A DNA stretch of 64,000 nucleotides from Leptolyngbya sp. Heron Island J (GTDB taxonomy: Bacteria > Cyanobacteriota > Cyanobacteriia > Phormidesmidales > Phormidesmidaceae): contig NZ_AWNH01000060.1 in the NCBI RefSeq assembly GCF_000482245.1, forward strand, positions 62,001 through 126,000, in the 5' to 3' direction. Shown here in pieces: positions 38,856 through 46,499 of this stretch. Positions within the stretch are counted from its first letter, which is position 1; the number at the start of each line of letters is the position of its first letter. A model generated the notes under the pieces. It saw nothing but the letters and a program-made list of their open reading frames with translations. It was not told the origin of the DNA and searched no databases. The translations under genes were made by a program, and so were the position numbers.

Positions 38856-39302
38856 GTGAGCCACAGTTTTCTGATCGAGCCAGGACGCTGGACCCTTCAA
38901 GGTAGCTGGTTAGCCAAGGATTTGTTTCCTATAACCGTCAAAGGCAAAATCTTGGTTGCCTGGAATAGTAACGACTGGTTCACTATGGTTACCAAGCTTA
39001 TTTTTCCGAATGGAGAGCTAGATGACATCGCTCTCCAATACAAAGGGCGTATTGTTCGAGGCGATCGTCAGTATACGTTTGTACTACAGCACACTATGCT
39101 TGGACGGGTCGAGGGCGAAGGCTGGATTGCGCCCGATTCCATAGTTCAGCAATATTGGGTGTTAAAAGATAGACATATGCGCACTGGATTTGAAACGCTT
39201 TATCGTCTGAGCCCCAATCGATATCATTTCTCCGGCGGCATTATGGCCGGTCATCATCTAACCAGTACGATGGAAGCGATTATTGAGCGCCATCAGGGTT
39301 AG
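38856..39302 (+). CDS. Conserved hypothetical protein (beta-rich, 148 residues)
   Basis: I do not recognise a named family. The protein is beta-rich with many aromatic residues (GRWTLQGSWLAKD, EGWIAPDSIVQQYWVL) and no signal or membrane segment. Its make-up suggests a lipocalin-like or heme-binding-like barrel, but this is a guess. Start is GTG with GGGAG upstream, in good spacing. It stands alone between anmK and the kinase pair. Confidence 0.7.
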   Translation: MSHSFLIEPGRWTLQGSWLAKDLFPITVKGKILVAWNSNDWFTMVTKLIFPNGELDDIALQYKGRIVRGDRQYTFVLQHTMLGRVEGEGWIAPDSIVQQYWVLKDRHMRTGFETLYRLSPNRYHFSGGIMAGHHLTSTMEAIIERHQG

Positions 39303-39515: not shown

Positions 39516-39544
39516 GTATTGTTGGTTTAGAACCGCAGCGTTAG
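39516..39544 (+). repeat. 29-nt leader shared by both kinase genes (copy 1)
   Basis: The 29 bases directly before the first kinase ATG match 27 of 29 bases of the same stretch before the second kinase (41224-41252). The stretch ends CCGCAGCGTTAG, so a stop codon abuts the ATG in both copies. No Shine-Dalgarno sequence is seen. Bases further upstream are unrelated. Confidence 0.85.
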
Positions 39545-40996
39545 ATGACAAACAATAACTCCGGTCGTAGACTTGCCAATCGCTATGAGCTGATGGATCC
39601 CATCGGTGAAGGTTCCATGGGAAAAGTCTATTTGGCTAAAGATACGCTTTTAGGGGGCGTGCCCGTCGCTGTTAAATTTTTGGCTCAAACCCTGCTGAAT
39701 GAGCAAATGACCCAGCGATTTATGCATGAGGCCATGACCTGTGCGCAGCTAGGCAACAACAGCATACATGTTGTTAGAGTGACAGACTATGGCGTAGCTG
39801 ATGATGAGATTCCCTTTTACGTTATGGAATATCTCAAAGGGAAAAACCTGGGTCAGGTTCTGCAGTCACATCCTCTACCGGTTAAACGATTTCTTGACTT
39901 TACTCGGCAAATCTGTCTGGGGTTAGACACTGCCCACAGGGGGATTATCCTTGAGGGGCAACTGGTTCCTATCATTCATCGAGATATTAAACCCAGTAAC
40001 ATTTTAGTCACCCAAAGTGCCAGTGTAGGGGAGCTGGTCAAAATTTTGGATTTTGGCATTGCAAAACTGATACAGGTAGGCATTAGCGAACAAACCAGTA
40101 GTTTTCTGGGAACGTTGGCCTATGCATCACCAGAGCAAATGGAAGGGCAGGAGCTAGATCGACGTTCTGACATCTATAGCTTAGGTGTCATGATGTATCA
40201 AATGCTCACAGGATCTTTACCATTACGCCCTAGCAGTAATACATTTGGCGGTTGGTATAAAGCGCACCGTTCCCAGGAGCCAACACCATTAGATGGGTTA
40301 TCCCCCTATGGTGCTTTGCCTGTGCGAATTAAAGACGCTGTGATGAGCTGTTTGGCCAAGGAGCGCTCCCAACGCCCTGGTAGCGTTAGTGAACTTTTTG
40401 CGCACCTTGAGGGCTCTATTGTATCTCCCATAGCTCCGAAAGAAGAGACCGAACCAGCGCCCCCCATAGAGTCTGAGGAAGATCGATTTTATCGACAACA
40501 AGGATGGCCACCAGATAAACCTGTTGCAGAGATTGTTTTTCCTAAACTTCTGATCATGGGAAAGCGTCAGTTACCGACACTTTGGGTAATGCTATCGCCT
40601 CAAGAAATTGAGCAGCGTATTAGCAACACCGGTTACAACAATTTCTTATGTACGCTTAATCCACACCCTATGGTGCTTTGGGTGACAGCGTTTCATAGTA
40701 AGGCTCAAGGGCCTAGATGGCTATCCAGTTATCTGGATCTCAAAAACCCTAGTCATGGGAAAATTATCTGGTACCTAGGTGAAAATGGTAGCTATCGAGT
40801 ACTATTCTTCTCCAAAGACACTCCTAACCAATTTATTGCTTCCCGCCGTCTGCATATCGCATCACCTCAGCGAAAACTGCTCAAGGAGTGGGTTCTAAGA
40901 GCGCGTGCAACCATCTCAGTAGGAAGTTCGCAAGATAGTAAAGATATTCTCAGGAAGGAGCTAAATCATAAGCTCAAACCTAAAATGCTGTGGTGA
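39545..40996 (+). CDS. Serine/threonine protein kinase, tandem copy 1
   Basis: Soluble Hanks-type kinase of 483 residues. Kinase domain about 14-288: glycine loop GEGSMGKVYL (21-30), K44 in VAVKFL, HRDIKPSNIL (145-154), DFG 169-171 and SPEQMEG. All catalytic residues are present. A linker rich in Pro/Glu follows, then a C-terminal domain of about 175 residues (FPKLLIMGKRQLPTLWVML... VLWVTAFHSK... PRWLSSYLDLK) that I do not recognise and that has no transmembrane helix. It is closely similar to the next gene, so a tandem duplication. Confidence 0.93.
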   Translation: MTNNNSGRRLANRYELMDPIGEGSMGKVYLAKDTLLGGVPVAVKFLAQTLLNEQMTQRFMHEAMTCAQLGNNSIHVVRVTDYGVADDEIPFYVMEYLKGKNLGQVLQSHPLPVKRFLDFTRQICLGLDTAHRGIILEGQLVPIIHRDIKPSNILVTQSASVGELVKILDFGIAKLIQVGISEQTSSFLGTLAYASPEQMEGQELDRRSDIYSLGVMMYQMLTGSLPLRPSSNTFGGWYKAHRSQEPTPLDGLSPYGALPVRIKDAVMSCLAKERSQRPGSVSELFAHLEGSIVSPIAPKEETEPAPPIESEEDRFYRQQGWPPDKPVAEIVFPKLLIMGKRQLPTLWVMLSPQEIEQRISNTGYNNFLCTLNPHPMVLWVTAFHSKAQGPRWLSSYLDLKNPSHGKIIWYLGENGSYRVLFFSKDTPNQFIASRRLHIASPQRKLLKEWVLRARATISVGSSQDSKDILRKELNHKLKPKMLW

Positions 40997-41223
40997 CCAC
41001 TAAAATCACTCTGGTTGATGCTTGGGGTTACCTAAAATAAATCGGGTACTTTAGGAACGGTTACAGAACTTTTAGTTCCAGTACGATACAAACAGGGCAT
41101 TGATAATTTCATCTATAGCCAAATCAATGCTTATAGCGAATGCCTGAGCAAAAAGGATTTTCTCTGTTTCATAGCTACTATGGCTGATAGGTTGGAGGTT
41201 CCTCTGACTTCGGACAGTGCTAT

Positions 41224-41252
41224 GTATTATTGGCTTAGAACCGCAGCGTTAG
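41224..41252 (+). repeat. 29-nt leader shared by both kinase genes (copy 2)
   Basis: Second copy, differing from 39516-39544 only at the 6th and 11th base. Again TAG directly precedes the ATG. Read in the frame of this TAG, both copies spell GLEPQR followed by stop. Confidence 0.85.
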
Positions 41253-42779
41253 ATGACAGACAATAATTTTGGTCGTAGACTTGCTAACCGTTATGAGTTG
41301 ATGGACCCCATCGGTCAAGGCTCGATGGGAAAAGTTTATCTGGCTGAAGACATGCTACTAGGAGGCGTACCTGTCGCTGTCAAGTTTTTGGCTCAAACCT
41401 TGCTGAATCAGCAAATGAATCAGCGGTTTATGCATGAGGCAATGACTTGTGCTCAGCTGGGAAACAACAGTATGCATGTCGTCAGGGTTACAGATTATGG
41501 GGTGACCGATGACGAAATTCCCTTTTACGTTATGGAGTATTTAAAGGGAAAAAATTTAGGCCAGGTGATTCAGCCAAACCCCTTGCCAATCCCGCGATTT
41601 CTCGATTTTATTCGACAAATCTGTTTGGGTTTGGAGAGTGCCCATAAAGGAATTATCCTGAATGGGCAATTGGTTCCCATCATTCATCGAGATATTAAAC
41701 CTAGCAATATTTTAGTCACCCAAAGTGCCAGCGTAGGGGAGCTGGTCAAGATTTTGGATTTTGGCATTGCCAAATTAATCCAGGCTGATAATAGTGAGCA
41801 AACCAGTAGTTTTATGGGGACGTTGGCCTATGCGTCGCCAGAGCAAATGGAAGGACAAGAGCTAGATCGGCGTTCTGATATCTACAGCTTGGGTGTCATG
41901 ATGTATCAAATGCTCACAGGCTCTTTGCCCTTTCGCCCCAGCCACAATACATTTGGCGGCTGGTACAAAGCCCATTGTGACCAAGACCCGATTCCATTAG
42001 ATGGGTTATCCCCCTATGGCTCCTTGCCCAAGCTGCTCAAAGATACAATTATTAGCTGTTTGGCTAAGGATCGGTCTCAACGACCTAGTAGTGTCAGCGA
42101 CCTATTGGGGAATCTAGCCCCGCTAGAAAATCGGTTTGGTAGGTCAATTGATCTTGGCAAACAGATTAGAGGGACGCTTCAGGAACTGCCGGTCGTACTT
42201 CGGCCAGCTCCTCCTAATGACTCTGAGGAAGATCGATTTTGTCGACAGCAGGTATGGCCTAAAAATAAAAATACACCTGTTGCTGAAATTTCTTTTCCTA
42301 AACTGCTGGTTATGAGTAATCGTCAGTTACCCACGCTTTGGGCAATGTTGGGGGCACAAGAAATTGATCAACGAATTGGTAATACTAGTTCTAACAACTT
42401 TTTATGTGTTCGTAATCCCTATCCAATGGTGCTGTGGGTTACGGCGTTTTACAGTAAAAATCAGGGACCAAGGTGGTTATCTAGCTATCTGGATCTTAAA
42501 AAAAATGTTAATCAGAAATTAATTTGGCATTTGGGAGAAACAGGCATCTATCGAGTTTTATTCTTCGCTAAGGAAGCGTCTAATCCGTTTATAGATTTTC
42601 GTCGTCTCCATGTTTCACTGCTTCAACAAAAGCTTCTGAAAGAGTGGGTATTGATGGGACGTTCAATAGTGCCAGTTGGTCAGCCTCAGGATAGTAAACG
42701 TGTGCTTAGAAAAGAGCTCAATGATAATTTGAAGCCGCAAATGTTAATGAGCTTTAAGGCGATGCACTCTGATACTTGA
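41253..42779 (+). CDS. Serine/threonine protein kinase, tandem copy 2
   Basis: Paralogue of the preceding kinase, 508 residues. The catalytic elements are the same and at the same positions: GQGSMGKVYL, VAVKFL, HRDIKPSNIL, DFGIAKL, SPEQMEG. The linker is about 20 residues longer (NRFGRSIDLGKQIRGTLQEL), and the C-terminal domain (FPKLLVMSNRQLPTLWAML, PRWLSSYLDLK, KLLKEWVLMGRS) is conserved but has diverged more than the kinase part. The 256-base gap between the genes shows no likeness to the region before copy 1 except in the 29-nt leader. Confidence 0.93.
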   Translation: MTDNNFGRRLANRYELMDPIGQGSMGKVYLAEDMLLGGVPVAVKFLAQTLLNQQMNQRFMHEAMTCAQLGNNSMHVVRVTDYGVTDDEIPFYVMEYLKGKNLGQVIQPNPLPIPRFLDFIRQICLGLESAHKGIILNGQLVPIIHRDIKPSNILVTQSASVGELVKILDFGIAKLIQADNSEQTSSFMGTLAYASPEQMEGQELDRRSDIYSLGVMMYQMLTGSLPFRPSHNTFGGWYKAHCDQDPIPLDGLSPYGSLPKLLKDTIISCLAKDRSQRPSSVSDLLGNLAPLENRFGRSIDLGKQIRGTLQELPVVLRPAPPNDSEEDRFCRQQVWPKNKNTPVAEISFPKLLVMSNRQLPTLWAMLGAQEIDQRIGNTSSNNFLCVRNPYPMVLWVTAFYSKNQGPRWLSSYLDLKKNVNQKLIWHLGETGIYRVLFFAKEASNPFIDFRRLHVSLLQQKLLKEWVLMGRSIVPVGQPQDSKRVLRKELNDNLKPQMLMSFKAMHSDT

Positions 42780-42992: not shown

Positions 42993-43865
42993 TTAACTAG
43001 AGGAATGAGGAAAGTGGATGACGGGATGCCAACTTGAACGCAATAAGGCGCTTGTAAAGCTAGGTACAGACCATTTCAAAATTCCCTTTGATTTACCTGA
43101 GCAAATCGCGATCGCAGAAATATCATTGATCTCTGCAGATTTTAAAATTTCAGGCTGGGGGTCACCCTCACGAATCTCAGTAAATACCTCTATACCTGCC
43201 AGTTCTAAGTCTGCTTTGACTTCATCCAGCTGTGTCTGAACCTGCTCTTTAGATTCTCTCAGCTCTACCCGAATACACTCATCAATCACCCAGCAAAGCG
43301 TACATTGCTTCGGGTGCTCATTTATCTGAGCTGCCGTCTTAATCTGCGATACTAAATGCTTAGCACTGTTGCTACCATCGTAGGGGACCAAAAGATGTTC
43401 AAATAGAGTTTGACACCGTAAGGCCAGCTCCTGATCTCGATAAGTTGCCACCAGTTGAGGGCGCAAAATTACCAGCGGCACATCAAGTTGATTAGCAATT
43501 CCCGTTGTAGTACTCCCAAAAATTTTTTCTGTGAGTAAGGAACGGGTTGGTGTACCTAAAAGTAATACATCAGCGTCATAGCAGCGTGCTGCCTTTGAAA
43601 TATTGTCAATAATTCGCCCTGAGCGCACATCAATGACAACTGACTTATGCTCAGGAAGTATAGCTTCACTAGCGTTGGCCAGCTTTTGTTTAGCTTGAAC
43701 CACGGCTTCATCATCAACTTTGGGGATTTCACGCTCAGTTGTCAGCGCAACATTATGGAAAAAAACTACTTTTTCAAGGCCAGACTGTACCAAATCAGGG
43801 ACAAACTTGATCAGCCGCTGCAAACTATCCTCAAAATCAGTACAGACTAGCGCACACTTAAACAT
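42993..43865 (-). CDS. Tandem universal stress protein
   Basis: A 290-residue protein with two Usp domains (about 1-140 and 150-288). Domain 1 has the phosphate-loop-like LLGTPTRSLLTEKIFGSTTTGI, close to the ATP-binding G-x2-G-x9-G-S-T pattern; domain 2 is more degenerate (AIAICSGKSKGILK). A beta-strand start is seen twice (CALVCTDFEDS; HLLVPYDGS). It lies 41 bases after the PP2C gene on the same strand and is convergent with kinase copy 2. A weak 7-bp hairpin at 42936-42956 lies downstream. Confidence 0.85.
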   Translation of the reverse strand: MFKCALVCTDFEDSLQRLIKFVPDLVQSGLEKVVFFHNVALTTEREIPKVDDEAVVQAKQKLANASEAILPEHKSVVIDVRSGRIIDNISKAARCYDADVLLLGTPTRSLLTEKIFGSTTTGIANQLDVPLVILRPQLVATYRDQELALRCQTLFEHLLVPYDGSNSAKHLVSQIKTAAQINEHPKQCTLCWVIDECIRVELRESKEQVQTQLDEVKADLELAGIEVFTEIREGDPQPEILKSAEINDISAIAICSGKSKGILKWSVPSFTSALLRSSWHPVIHFPHSSS

Positions 43866-43906: not shown

Positions 43907-44638
43907 TTAGTCTTGAAAAGCTACCACTACTACCGTGATGTTATCTCGCCCTCCCCGCTGGTTGGCTGCGTCAACCAGCGATTCAACTGCCGTTGGGCAC
44001 GAACGAATACTCTTCAAATGAGTGGCGATGAGCGGATCAGAAAGTTCTTCTGTTAACCCATCGCTACATAACAGGAGACGATCACCCCCAGATACATCCA
44101 GTGCCTGAATATCGATCCGACTCAGATCTTCTCTTCCTAAACATTGGGAGAGCACATGTCGCCATGGATGATGCTTCGATTCATCCACTGTCAATTCACC
44201 CTCTTCAATGGCTTTGGCAACCCAAGTATGATCGGTTGTAATCTGGTCGAGTTTAGCTCCTCGTAAACGGTAGAGACGGGAATCTCCGACATGCGCACAC
44301 CATGGCTGTTTGTCATTGTCTCGAAACATGACAGCCACAGCAGTTGTTCCCATATCTGATCGTTCAGGGTGGTGATATTGATCTTTCAAAATGGCATCGT
44401 TAGCTGCAATAAACGCCTTTCGCAGCATTACGTCTGGCGCTTCTGAGCTATCCCAATGCTCATTCAAATATTGATAAATCGTTTCTGTAGCCAAACGACT
44501 AGCTTCCTGACCGCCAGCGTGTCCCCCCATACCATCAGCAACTACAAAGAACCGGCCTAAATCATCCAGATAATAAGCATCTTGATTGCTAGTTCTTAGC
44601 AATCCTGGATCTGTTAAACCGGCAAAAAAGCGTTGCAT
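43907..44638 (-). CDS. PP2C family protein phosphatase
   Basis: Metal-dependent Ser/Thr phosphatase of about 243 residues. Motifs: [58 protein letters not shown] and [11 protein letters not shown], all typical with the metal-binding aspartates present. I chose ATG at 44638 ([16 protein letters not shown]); the frame extends 17 codons upstream into the gap behind the ABC1 gene. It is a natural antagonist for the two Ser/Thr kinases encoded next door, though pairing is inference. Confidence 0.92.
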
Positions 44639-44663
44639 AAAGCATCTAGGCATAAAAAAGAAA

Positions 44664-46499
44664 CTATGGCATGCGGTCAGCTCGACCAAGACTCATCAAA
44701 GAGCGAATTAATGCTATTCCTGCAGCAATTGCCGGTAACATCATACCCAAAGCAACCCATGGTAGTTGACTAATCAACAAGAGGGTAGCCGATAGGGTAA
44801 ACGTGCCCAAGAGCAGAGTATAGTTTGTCATCAGATTAATGCTACTCAGACGTCGAATAGCCCGATCGGTCTCAATAGAGCGCACTCTGACACGAATATC
44901 ACCTCGATCTAAACGATCCAATGAATCCTCAATTCGTCTTGGTAACCCAAATGCTGAGCTACCTACTTGAGCAGCTTGGCGACCGATTTCACCAATGAGT
45001 CCATTACTAGAAGAATTAGAGACATTAGACATAAGTTGATTGGCAAACGGTTTTGCAGCCTCCATAAAGTTAAACTCTGGATCTAGACCTTTCCCTACAC
45101 CCTCAAGTGTAGAAAATGCTCTCATCACGAATGTAAAGGTTGCTGGGAAGCGAAATGGCTGATCATACGCAACAGCATACAAATCATCACTGATAGCGGT
45201 AATGGACTGTTCCTCAAATGGCTTGTCCATCAAGTTATCCAAGATGTACTGAATTGAGCGACGTACAGGGCCCATATCTTCAGTTTCTGTTAGGGCCCCT
45301 AACTCAATTAAAGATGTCATCACCATATCAGCGTTGCGCTGAGAAACCCCCATAAAAGTATGCATCAGTCCATCACGCGTAATCGGTTGAATATGACCCA
45401 TCATGCCAAAATCATAAAAGATAAGGGCACCATCAGGATTCACAGCGATATTGCCAGGATGCGGATCAGCATGGAAAAAACCATCATTAAGCAGCTGATG
45501 TAAGTAAGCTTGTGCTCCCAACTGCGCAAGGCGTTGCCGGTCTAACCCAGCAGCTTCCAAAGACTCATAATGACTAATTTTAATCCCTGGCAAATATTCC
45601 AAGGTCAGCACGCGACGTGACGCATAGCGCCAATAGATGCGAGGAGCTTTAACCCACTCGATCTCACGAAAGTTACGGCGAAATGTATCTGCATTACGCC
45701 CCTCATGCAAAAAATCAATTTCTAACCAAAGAATACGGCAGCATTCTTCATAGATACCAATCCAATCTCGCCCTTTACCCCACTCAGGATGACGCTGAAA
45801 GTAATGGGCAATTCCTTTCAGAATAGACAGGTCGATTTTAAAGAGACGCTGTAAACCAGGACGTTGAATCTTAACAACGACTTCCTCTCCCGAATGTAAC
45901 TGGGCCCGATGGACCTGTCCTAAGCTGGCCGCTGCCAATGGAATTGGGTCAAAGGTTTTGTAAAGCTCTTCTACGGGACGACCTAAATCAGCCTCAATAA
46001 TGGCCTTAGCTTGCTCGTAACTAAAAGCAGGAACCTGATCCTGTAACTTAGAGAGCTCTTCTACATATTCAGTCGGAAACAAATCCGAGCGTGTAGAAAA
46101 CAGCTGCCCTAGCTTAATGAATGTGGGGCCAAGATTTAGAAAATTGAGCCGAATCCATCGAGCTTGAGCCCGTCGTCGCGCTGCTTGCTTCTCAGCAGAC
46201 ATGCCTCCCGCGTAGCTCCAGGACTTGCCATAGAGCCAGCGTTTACCAAGCATGGTCAGAAAAAATGACCAAATATCAATAAATCGCTCTGGACGACTGT
46301 AACGTCGATTCCAGCGGTAACGCTTTTCTATTGGAATACTCAGCTGCTTATCGACAAAATGAACTGTCGCCGGATTAGAACTTGTCGGATTAACTAGCGA
46401 TAATTCAGGGTTGCTAAGGCTCCCTAACTCACTAAGCGAGTGGTCATCAGGACGCTCACTTAGCAAAGGCTGATCGGTTGTGTTGGGAACTGTAGACAC
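44664..46499 (-). CDS. ABC1/AarF/UbiB family kinase-like protein
   Basis: Atypical kinase of 611 residues. Characteristic parts: [20 protein letters not shown] (the KxGQ motif), the Ala-rich loop [15 protein letters not shown] replacing a Gly-rich loop, [10 protein letters not shown] with the Lys, and [15 protein letters not shown] plus YDFGMMGHI. Two C-terminal hydrophobic helices ([16 protein letters not shown] and [13 protein letters not shown]) anchor it to a membrane. Relatives act on quinone/tocopherol metabolism in cyanobacteria and plastids. It is followed by the PP2C gene after 25 bases. Confidence 0.93.

Follow-up and report, generated by a model that had tools for sequence, protein, structure and literature searches.

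Two genes for Hanks-type Ser/Thr kinases lie in tandem in the cyanobacterium Leptolyngbya sp. Heron Island J, and we describe here this gene pair, the C-terminal domain (CTD) shared by the two proteins and the small conserved gene that precedes them. The DNA analysed, termed the window, is a stretch of 64,000 nucleotides (NCBI RefSeq assembly GCF_000482245.1, contig NZ_AWNH01000060.1, positions 62,001 to 126,000 of the forward strand), and all positions are counted from its first letter. The features with which the argument is concerned are as follows.

38856..39302, + strand: conserved gene of 148 amino acids, predicted 10-stranded barrel like those of nitrobindin and fatty acid-binding proteins (FABP) (adjacency in 65/79 genomes; model with predicted local distance difference test (pLDDT) 78.3; nitrobindin Z 16.6).
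39516..39544, + strand: 29-bp leader of copy 1, 27/29 identical to the copy-2 leader (sequence comparison).
39545..40996, + strand: Ser/Thr kinase copy 1, very probably of SpkA type, 483 amino acids, with short linker and truncated tail, adjoining the barrel gene (open reading frame (ORF), Pfam, trees, family assignment).
39584..40402, + strand: Hanks kinase domain of copy 1, residues 14-286 (PF00069, E=1.9e-40; motifs).
40481..40993, + strand: probable SpkA CTD of copy 1, residues 313-483 (AlphaFold pLDDT 94.0, predicted template modelling score (pTM) 0.87; no Pfam or NCBIfam match; 94/386 phylum genomes).
41224..41252, + strand: 29-bp leader of copy 2 (sequence comparison).
41253..42779, + strand: Ser/Thr kinase copy 2, very probably of SpkA type, 508 amino acids, with the linker motif of the clade and the longer tail retained (ORF, Pfam, trees, copy comparison).
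41292..42092, + strand: Hanks kinase domain of copy 2, residues 14-280 (PF00069, E=1.2e-42; motifs).
42231..42776, + strand: probable SpkA CTD of copy 2, residues 327-508, altered at the equivalents of copy-1 K325, Y364 and H374 (alignments).

Both ORFs are full-length, and the P-loop, VAVK, HRDIKPSN, DFG and SPE motifs stand at matching positions in the two kinases, as an earlier note, made from the letters alone, had read them: two intact Hanks kinases in tandem. That note also took the proteins to be soluble, and the highest 19-residue Kyte–Doolittle means are only 1.23 (copy 1) and 1.36 (copy 2), so that a transmembrane segment is not indicated in either. Its description of the kinase domains as near identical was right as to similarity and overstated as to degree: the kinase parts (residues 1-290) share 248/290 residues (86%) and 80% of their nucleotides, the linkers 6/20 residues and the C-terminal parts 118/173 (68%), with 55/105 fourfold sites differing in the kinase part and 29/43 in the C-terminal part. 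The shared upstream regulation that it proposed agrees with the likeness of the two leaders, the first of which opens the note's interval at 39516, but the copies have separate 5′ intergenic regions of 242 and 256 bp, and a promoter scan was not above chance (7 found versus 8.4 expected). The same genome holds 30 Pkinase matches above the Pfam cut-off and one below it; CTD-carrying places number two. Against the PASTA kinase model PknB/Stk1 (NCBIfam NF033483; cut-off 450 bits) the window kinases stay below the threshold, at 245.1 and 246.0 bits.

The family to which these CTD kinases belong is, with high probability, SpkA (the sll1574/75 type). SpkC had been considered as their named counterpart on account of its 'I-other' class and its length. 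It was rejected: the published SpkC peptide (PMC4379935), found at 88-95% identity in 3/50 genomes of one family, all of them in genus g40, maps in g40 genomes to a locus other than that of the CTD kinase. The presence of this peptide in three g40 genomes is the reason for taking g40 as Synechocystis. The CTD kinase of the g40 genome G128 (L062:7160-8725) has 521 amino acids. One of the markers used to place it is Sll1577, which we take to be CpcB. An ORF 2.6 kb past the G128 kinase reads MTGNASAIVSNAAR, and PMC4379935 gives ITGNASAIVSNAAR for Sll1577, differing in the first residue. Published spkA primers (PMC7860145) fit the CTD kinase best among 25 loci, the forward primer with 1/17 mismatches in G128 and G462 and the reverse with 3/19 in G128, and both sites in L062 fall within the linker/CTD part. 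All spkB, spkC and spkG primers and 3/4 spkF primers fit best at other loci; the fourth spkF primer fits best in L061, outside the kinase, and one of the spkD primers fits L062 outside the kinase at 2/16 mismatches.

The link between SpkA and motility reportedly dates from 2001. For Synechocystis SpkA, which a review table lists as sll1574/75 (PMC11863333), autophosphorylation and a requirement in motility and thick-pilus formation are reported. SpkA is regarded as an activator of the pilA9-11 operon, a repressor of two others and essential for thick pili and motility (PMC3264485), and non-motile GT strains share a 1-bp insertion in spkA (PMC4632739; PMC10068330). The genome of the window carries a PilM-type pilus gene. 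The earlier note had allowed that the pair might already be characterised, which holds in part: the SpkA type is, in Synechocystis, and no report on this kinase pair was found, no literature search by organism having been made.

The CTD of the window kinases, some 170 residues long, corresponds to an extension of SpkA for which a 2005 survey had no assignment; the survey describes a C-terminal extension of 200 residues without an assignable domain, whose role 'remains to be elucidated' (PMC1262709). Among the titles listed for SpkA and its C-terminal region in literature from 2018 on, none dealt with this domain. The earlier note could not place the domain in a known sensor family, and the domain libraries bear it out: the window's C-terminal parts reach no Pfam cut-off (single match E = 0.11, 13 versus 21.9 bits) and have zero NCBIfam matches, the best Pfam match to the CTDs of 17 family members has E 0.074 only, and solved structures searched by CTD sequence return nothing at E<=10. 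Nearly the whole CTD profile (positions 2-177 of 180) matches in the g40 kinases, and in G128 and G070 the homologous domain was seen to occupy the corresponding part of the protein.

The structure prediction that the earlier note had proposed gave a confident model and no clear match in the PDB. For AlphaFold, 17 CTDs were aligned, those of the window together with others from named loci, and the model is a compact alpha/beta structure (mean pLDDT 94.0) with strands at 18-26, 29-38, 50-58, 64-73, 77-86, 104-111 and 118-125 and helices comprising a short first one, 40-47, 90-102 and then two long C-terminal helices. Foldseek gave no PDB match below E 0.001, the best being 0.05, and the kinase association domain that forms the CaMKII hub scored E 0.13 with probability 0.10. 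The best VIA score, to a Whirly/MRP-like fold (Z 4.0, root-mean-square deviation (rmsd) 4.1, 92 aligned) and on a protein other than the top Foldseek match, may reflect only a common arrangement. In a viral structure library two models reached E about 1e-3, including A0A0N7A9T9 (probability 1.00, TM 0.49, rmsd 5.2). These searches leave the modelled fold unassigned, and we make no claim of a new one. For conservation, 60 members were aligned, chosen for having both kinase and CTD (frames of at least 420 amino acids, readable P-loop) after the own-genome duplicates L001, L002 and L031 had been set aside; conservation reaches 90% or more in 42 CTD columns, and W321, P322, W347, W379, W392 and D398 are conserved in 60/60.

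The genome survey also proposed in that note places the CTD in 94/386 phylum genomes by profile, every one in the window's class, and in 52/59 relatives searched. No CTD match was found in 72,556 plasmid and 50,697 phage records, and no plasmid place covered 80% of the full-length kinase; a single contig scan, set to find close relatives, gave 9 loci, every one of them cyanobacterial. The CTD places listed from the phylum search lie in open frames of at least 429 amino acids with one exception of 196 amino acids, L063, which is also the only kinase-less case among the seven loci examined for a CTD outside kinases (six short or odd frames and L042). The CTD frames of L017, L064 and L065 reach contig ends. 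Apparent frameshifts were seen in two spkA-type copies, in the kinase part of L037 (G008) and inside the CTD of L067 (G020).

The copies of the window are not alone in standing in tandem. Three CTD places occur in 28/36 of the family f28 genomes with a match, at least five f28 genomes having none, and the matches listed include 17 tandem-pair genomes, namely 16 of f28 and that of the window. Many f28 genomes carry a divergent tandem CTD-kinase pair besides a SpkA-like copy. One such pair, L066:5357-8555 (G385), is distant from the window pair in both trees, its own pairing having support 0.984 in the kinase tree but 0.001 in the CTD tree, and a third pair, L028:2612-6450 from a Synechococcales metagenome-assembled genome, has support of 0.956 and 0.985. 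Tandem copies of the SpkA-type kinase thus probably arose more than once. The divergent f28 pair may, as a suggestion only, be alr2411/alr2412 of Anabaena, whose expression is reported to change in a furA mutant.

The earlier note was right to see a tandem duplication, but not in calling it recent. All eight genomes of the genus that were searched (8/8) have two CTD copies, in tandem in 7/8, the two of G006 lying about 46 kb apart on opposite strands. In both trees the copies cluster by orthologue and not by genome, with the genus monophyletic: the copy-1 clade has support 0.814 in the CTD tree and 0.997 in the kinase tree, and the copy-2 clade 0.997 in the CTD tree, where it includes L009, and 0.86 in the kinase tree, where it does not. 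Since every genus genome has two copies and both trees group them by orthologue, the duplication, dated on sequence grounds, is older than the genus or lies at its base. Gene conversion between the copies was considered and left no sign, given kinase distances of 0.185 between paralogues within a genome versus 0.198 between genomes.

The CTD changes faster than the kinase part, from which the earlier note had argued for a different ligand or partner, an argument that is only weakly supported. In six within-genome pairs the CTD distance is 2.36 (2.06-2.90) times the kinase distance; this ratio is 1.69 and 2.33 among copy-1 and copy-2 orthologues, and 1.80 (0.96-2.92) in 29 comparable pairs drawn from the rest of the family, from which L009, L066, L028_+2612 and L067 were left out. 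A fast CTD is thus mostly a family trait, with an excess in window-type pairs that is mild at most.

The copies differ in more than rate. A linker motif (around RSIDLGKQIRGTL) and the longer tail are kept in 7/7 copy-2-type sequences and absent from 7/7 copy-1 sequences. Among positions that 85% or more of 46 other family members share, copy 2 is altered where copy 1 is intact at K325 (7/7), Y364 (7/7), H374 (5/7) and V331 (2/7), and copy 1 is altered at Q405 (4/7) and lacks L483. Fixed differences number six kinase, four linker and six CTD columns, two of the last being tail columns missing from copy 1. Losses in different parts fit, as a hint drawn from few sites, subfunctionalisation.

The gene upstream of copy 1 is often a neighbour of the CTD kinase in other genomes too. 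It is present in 101/386 phylum genomes, two of them by weak matches, and 79 genomes have both it and the CTD; in 65/79 it lies upstream, on the same strand and within 5 kb (<=5 kb) of the CTD, and in 60 of those 65 within 2.4 kb, which leaves space for little beyond the kinase part. In the window it directly precedes copy 1 only, copy 2 following copy 1. The L023 gene, which has unread bases, was left out of the comparison set (A2). The best model has ten strands; the five models range in pLDDT from 78.3 to 39.2, two being about 40. The top matches are of nitrobindin type, with Foldseek E 9.1e-6 to 2fr2 and, for Arabidopsis nitrobindin, VIA Z 16.6, rmsd 2.8, 144 aligned and 12% identity; phycobiliprotein-lyase and FABP barrels rank lower. 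Part of this score is generic barrel shape, because unrelated barrels come near it (a designed transmembrane barrel at Z 15.6, an outer-membrane protease at Z 15.0), and no Pfam family of the nitrobindin/FABP kind was found at E<=1 in eight members. The gene is thus predicted to encode a putative nitrobindin/FABP-like 10-stranded barrel, a shared fold that says nothing of the ligand.

Downstream of the kinases, on the other strand, lie two further genes of relevance.

42993..43865, - strand: universal stress protein (USP) (PF00582, E=5.1e-27).
43907..44689, - strand: PP2C-type phosphatase, a possible opposing enzyme (PF13672, E=1.3e-19).

In L022-L026 the kinases are followed, on the opposite strand, by the USP and PP2C genes and an ABC1-type gene; L027 has USP and PP2C downstream as well, and L028 has USP. 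In the window, the - strand ORFs of the PP2C phosphatase and the ABC1-type kinase-like protein, as listed, overlap by 26 bp (44664-44689).

Taken as a whole, the best explanation, to which we give somewhat better than even odds, is that of two SpkA co-orthologues whose kinases are set by the CTD, with the barrel protein as partner, motility as output and inputs divided between the copies. A tandem duplication at the base of the genus gave rise to the two co-orthologues. In each soluble Hanks kinase the SpkA-specific CTD, a predicted alpha/beta module, would set activity or targeting. The upstream barrel protein would probably belong to the same pathway, perhaps bringing a small-molecule signal to it, and the PP2C phosphatase about 1.1 kb downstream could undo the phosphorylation in this clade. 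By analogy with Synechocystis SpkA, the pair would govern pilin genes, thick pili and movement. The copies then changed in different parts, copy 1 losing the juxta-kinase linker motif and the tail and copy 2 being altered at K325, Y364 and H374, which copy 1 keeps; these copy-specific losses hint at divided regulatory inputs, and the two genes are best read as lineage-specific SpkA co-orthologues that may have divided the inputs of their parent. The sequences themselves show the family, the age of the duplication, the co-occurrence and the losses, whereas CTD regulation, the barrel partnership, the phosphatase role, a motility output in this organism and the division of inputs are inferred.

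Several observations weigh against this interpretation. The SpkA assignment was made through g40 genomes taken as Synechocystis and not through the PCC 6803 sequence itself; the SpkC peptide was not found in 2/5 g40 genomes searched, and the g40 genome G070 has its CTD kinase not beside cpcB but flanked by anmK/barrel gene on one side and, on the other, by an ORF that on inspection reads as lepA. PCC 6714 is reported to be non-motile despite an intact spkA, for which its authors blame a missing pilA5 (PMC4060947). None of the USP, PP2C and ABC1-type genes was found within the limited flanks of L029, L030, L061, L062 and L066, nor PP2C in L028. With respect to the barrel gene, it lies elsewhere in the genome in 14/79 cases, 22 genomes have it (2 by weak matches) but no detected CTD, and the CTD occurs without it in 14/93 genomes. 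The separations and the barrel genes without a CTD would suit a mere positional neighbour, kept in place by shared transcription or general synteny and outside SpkA signalling, and anmK, present in 7/12 loci, shows that general synteny contributes to the adjacency. That explanation has a real chance, though less than an even one: the adjacency recurs in 65/79 genomes across many cyanobacterial families, including G128, whose barrel gene has an ORF that is not anmK in front of it.

The division of inputs is weighed down by R363, L383, P394, C395, G404, C430 and I481, which are conserved in the family and changed in both window copies, and by H374, changed in only 5/7 copy-2 sequences; because of these, any 'complementary' loss rests on few sites. 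A second copy that is largely redundant, retained by dosage or drift without division of labour, would agree with the small number of fixed differences and with a CTD/kinase rate ratio that overlaps that of single-copy members, but it sits poorly with two copies in 8/8 genus genomes that differ consistently in the linker, in the tail and at some CTD positions, and we think it somewhat unlikely.

Against the CTD as a putative regulator of the kinase stands one CTD (L063:5039-5617, in G405) that is encoded alone, with 192 amino acids, no kinase domain being detected in a 10-kb stretch. G405 also encodes a full SpkA-type kinase (L042). A role of the CTD in docking substrates or anchoring partners instead of sensing, so that it brings SpkA to its targets and the copies address different substrates on the same input, is unlikely, for although the conserved aromatic-rich motifs of the domain (RWL..YLDLK, HPM.LW), the two long C-terminal helices of the model and the failure of structure searches to recognise a known ligand-binding fold speak for such a role, it has no known partner and leaves the conserved upstream barrel gene unexplained.

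Beyond the explanation of divided SpkA co-orthologues lies a bolder reading, which we regard as improbable as it stands: SpkA, its CTD and the barrel protein would form an undescribed cytosolic cyanobacterial signalling module, in which the barrel, of a fold common to phycobiliprotein lyases, would bind haem/nitric oxide, a bilin or a fatty acid and act through a CTD of unrecognised fold on pilus-based movement, the genus having split the input over two kinases. An 'unfamiliar domain' becomes a concrete, testable gap, namely SpkA's own extension, for which limits, a confidently modelled fold, the conserved residues, the occurrence across genomes and a conserved neighbouring gene, with a predicted barrel of ligand-binding type, are now given. 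The duplicated pair offers a natural experiment that separates the linker and tail from some of the conserved CTD positions.

Set beside known systems, the SpkA kinase family is known, and the interesting remainder is its CTD with the conserved barrel neighbour. PknB-type PASTA kinases (NF033483) have a related kinase domain (E about 1e-72), but the window kinases fall far under the curated cut-off, and a transmembrane segment is not indicated in them. The cbSTKI-other class of Zhang et al. (2007; PMC2176072), in which SpkA is filed, likewise joins a kinase to a long unidentified C-terminus; it is a leftover category of 107 proteins, whereas the SpkA CTD is one homologous group, which would fall inside it. 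The upstream gene resembles nitrobindin/FABP barrels in its predicted ten strands and differs from them in its low identity to nitrobindin and in having no Pfam match of that kind. Spacedust conserved cluster 3 (PMC12510874) joins spkA with a conserved, unannotated third gene, for which the available passages give no fold, duplication or distribution, and we infer that this third gene is the barrel gene. The closest counterpart is SpkA of Synechocystis PCC 6803, which, judged from its congeners (521 amino acids in G128), has kinase and CTD as in the window copies and the same 148-amino-acid gene upstream; each of four g40 genomes has one CTD match, whereas the window has two copies in tandem, whose linkers and tails have diverged.

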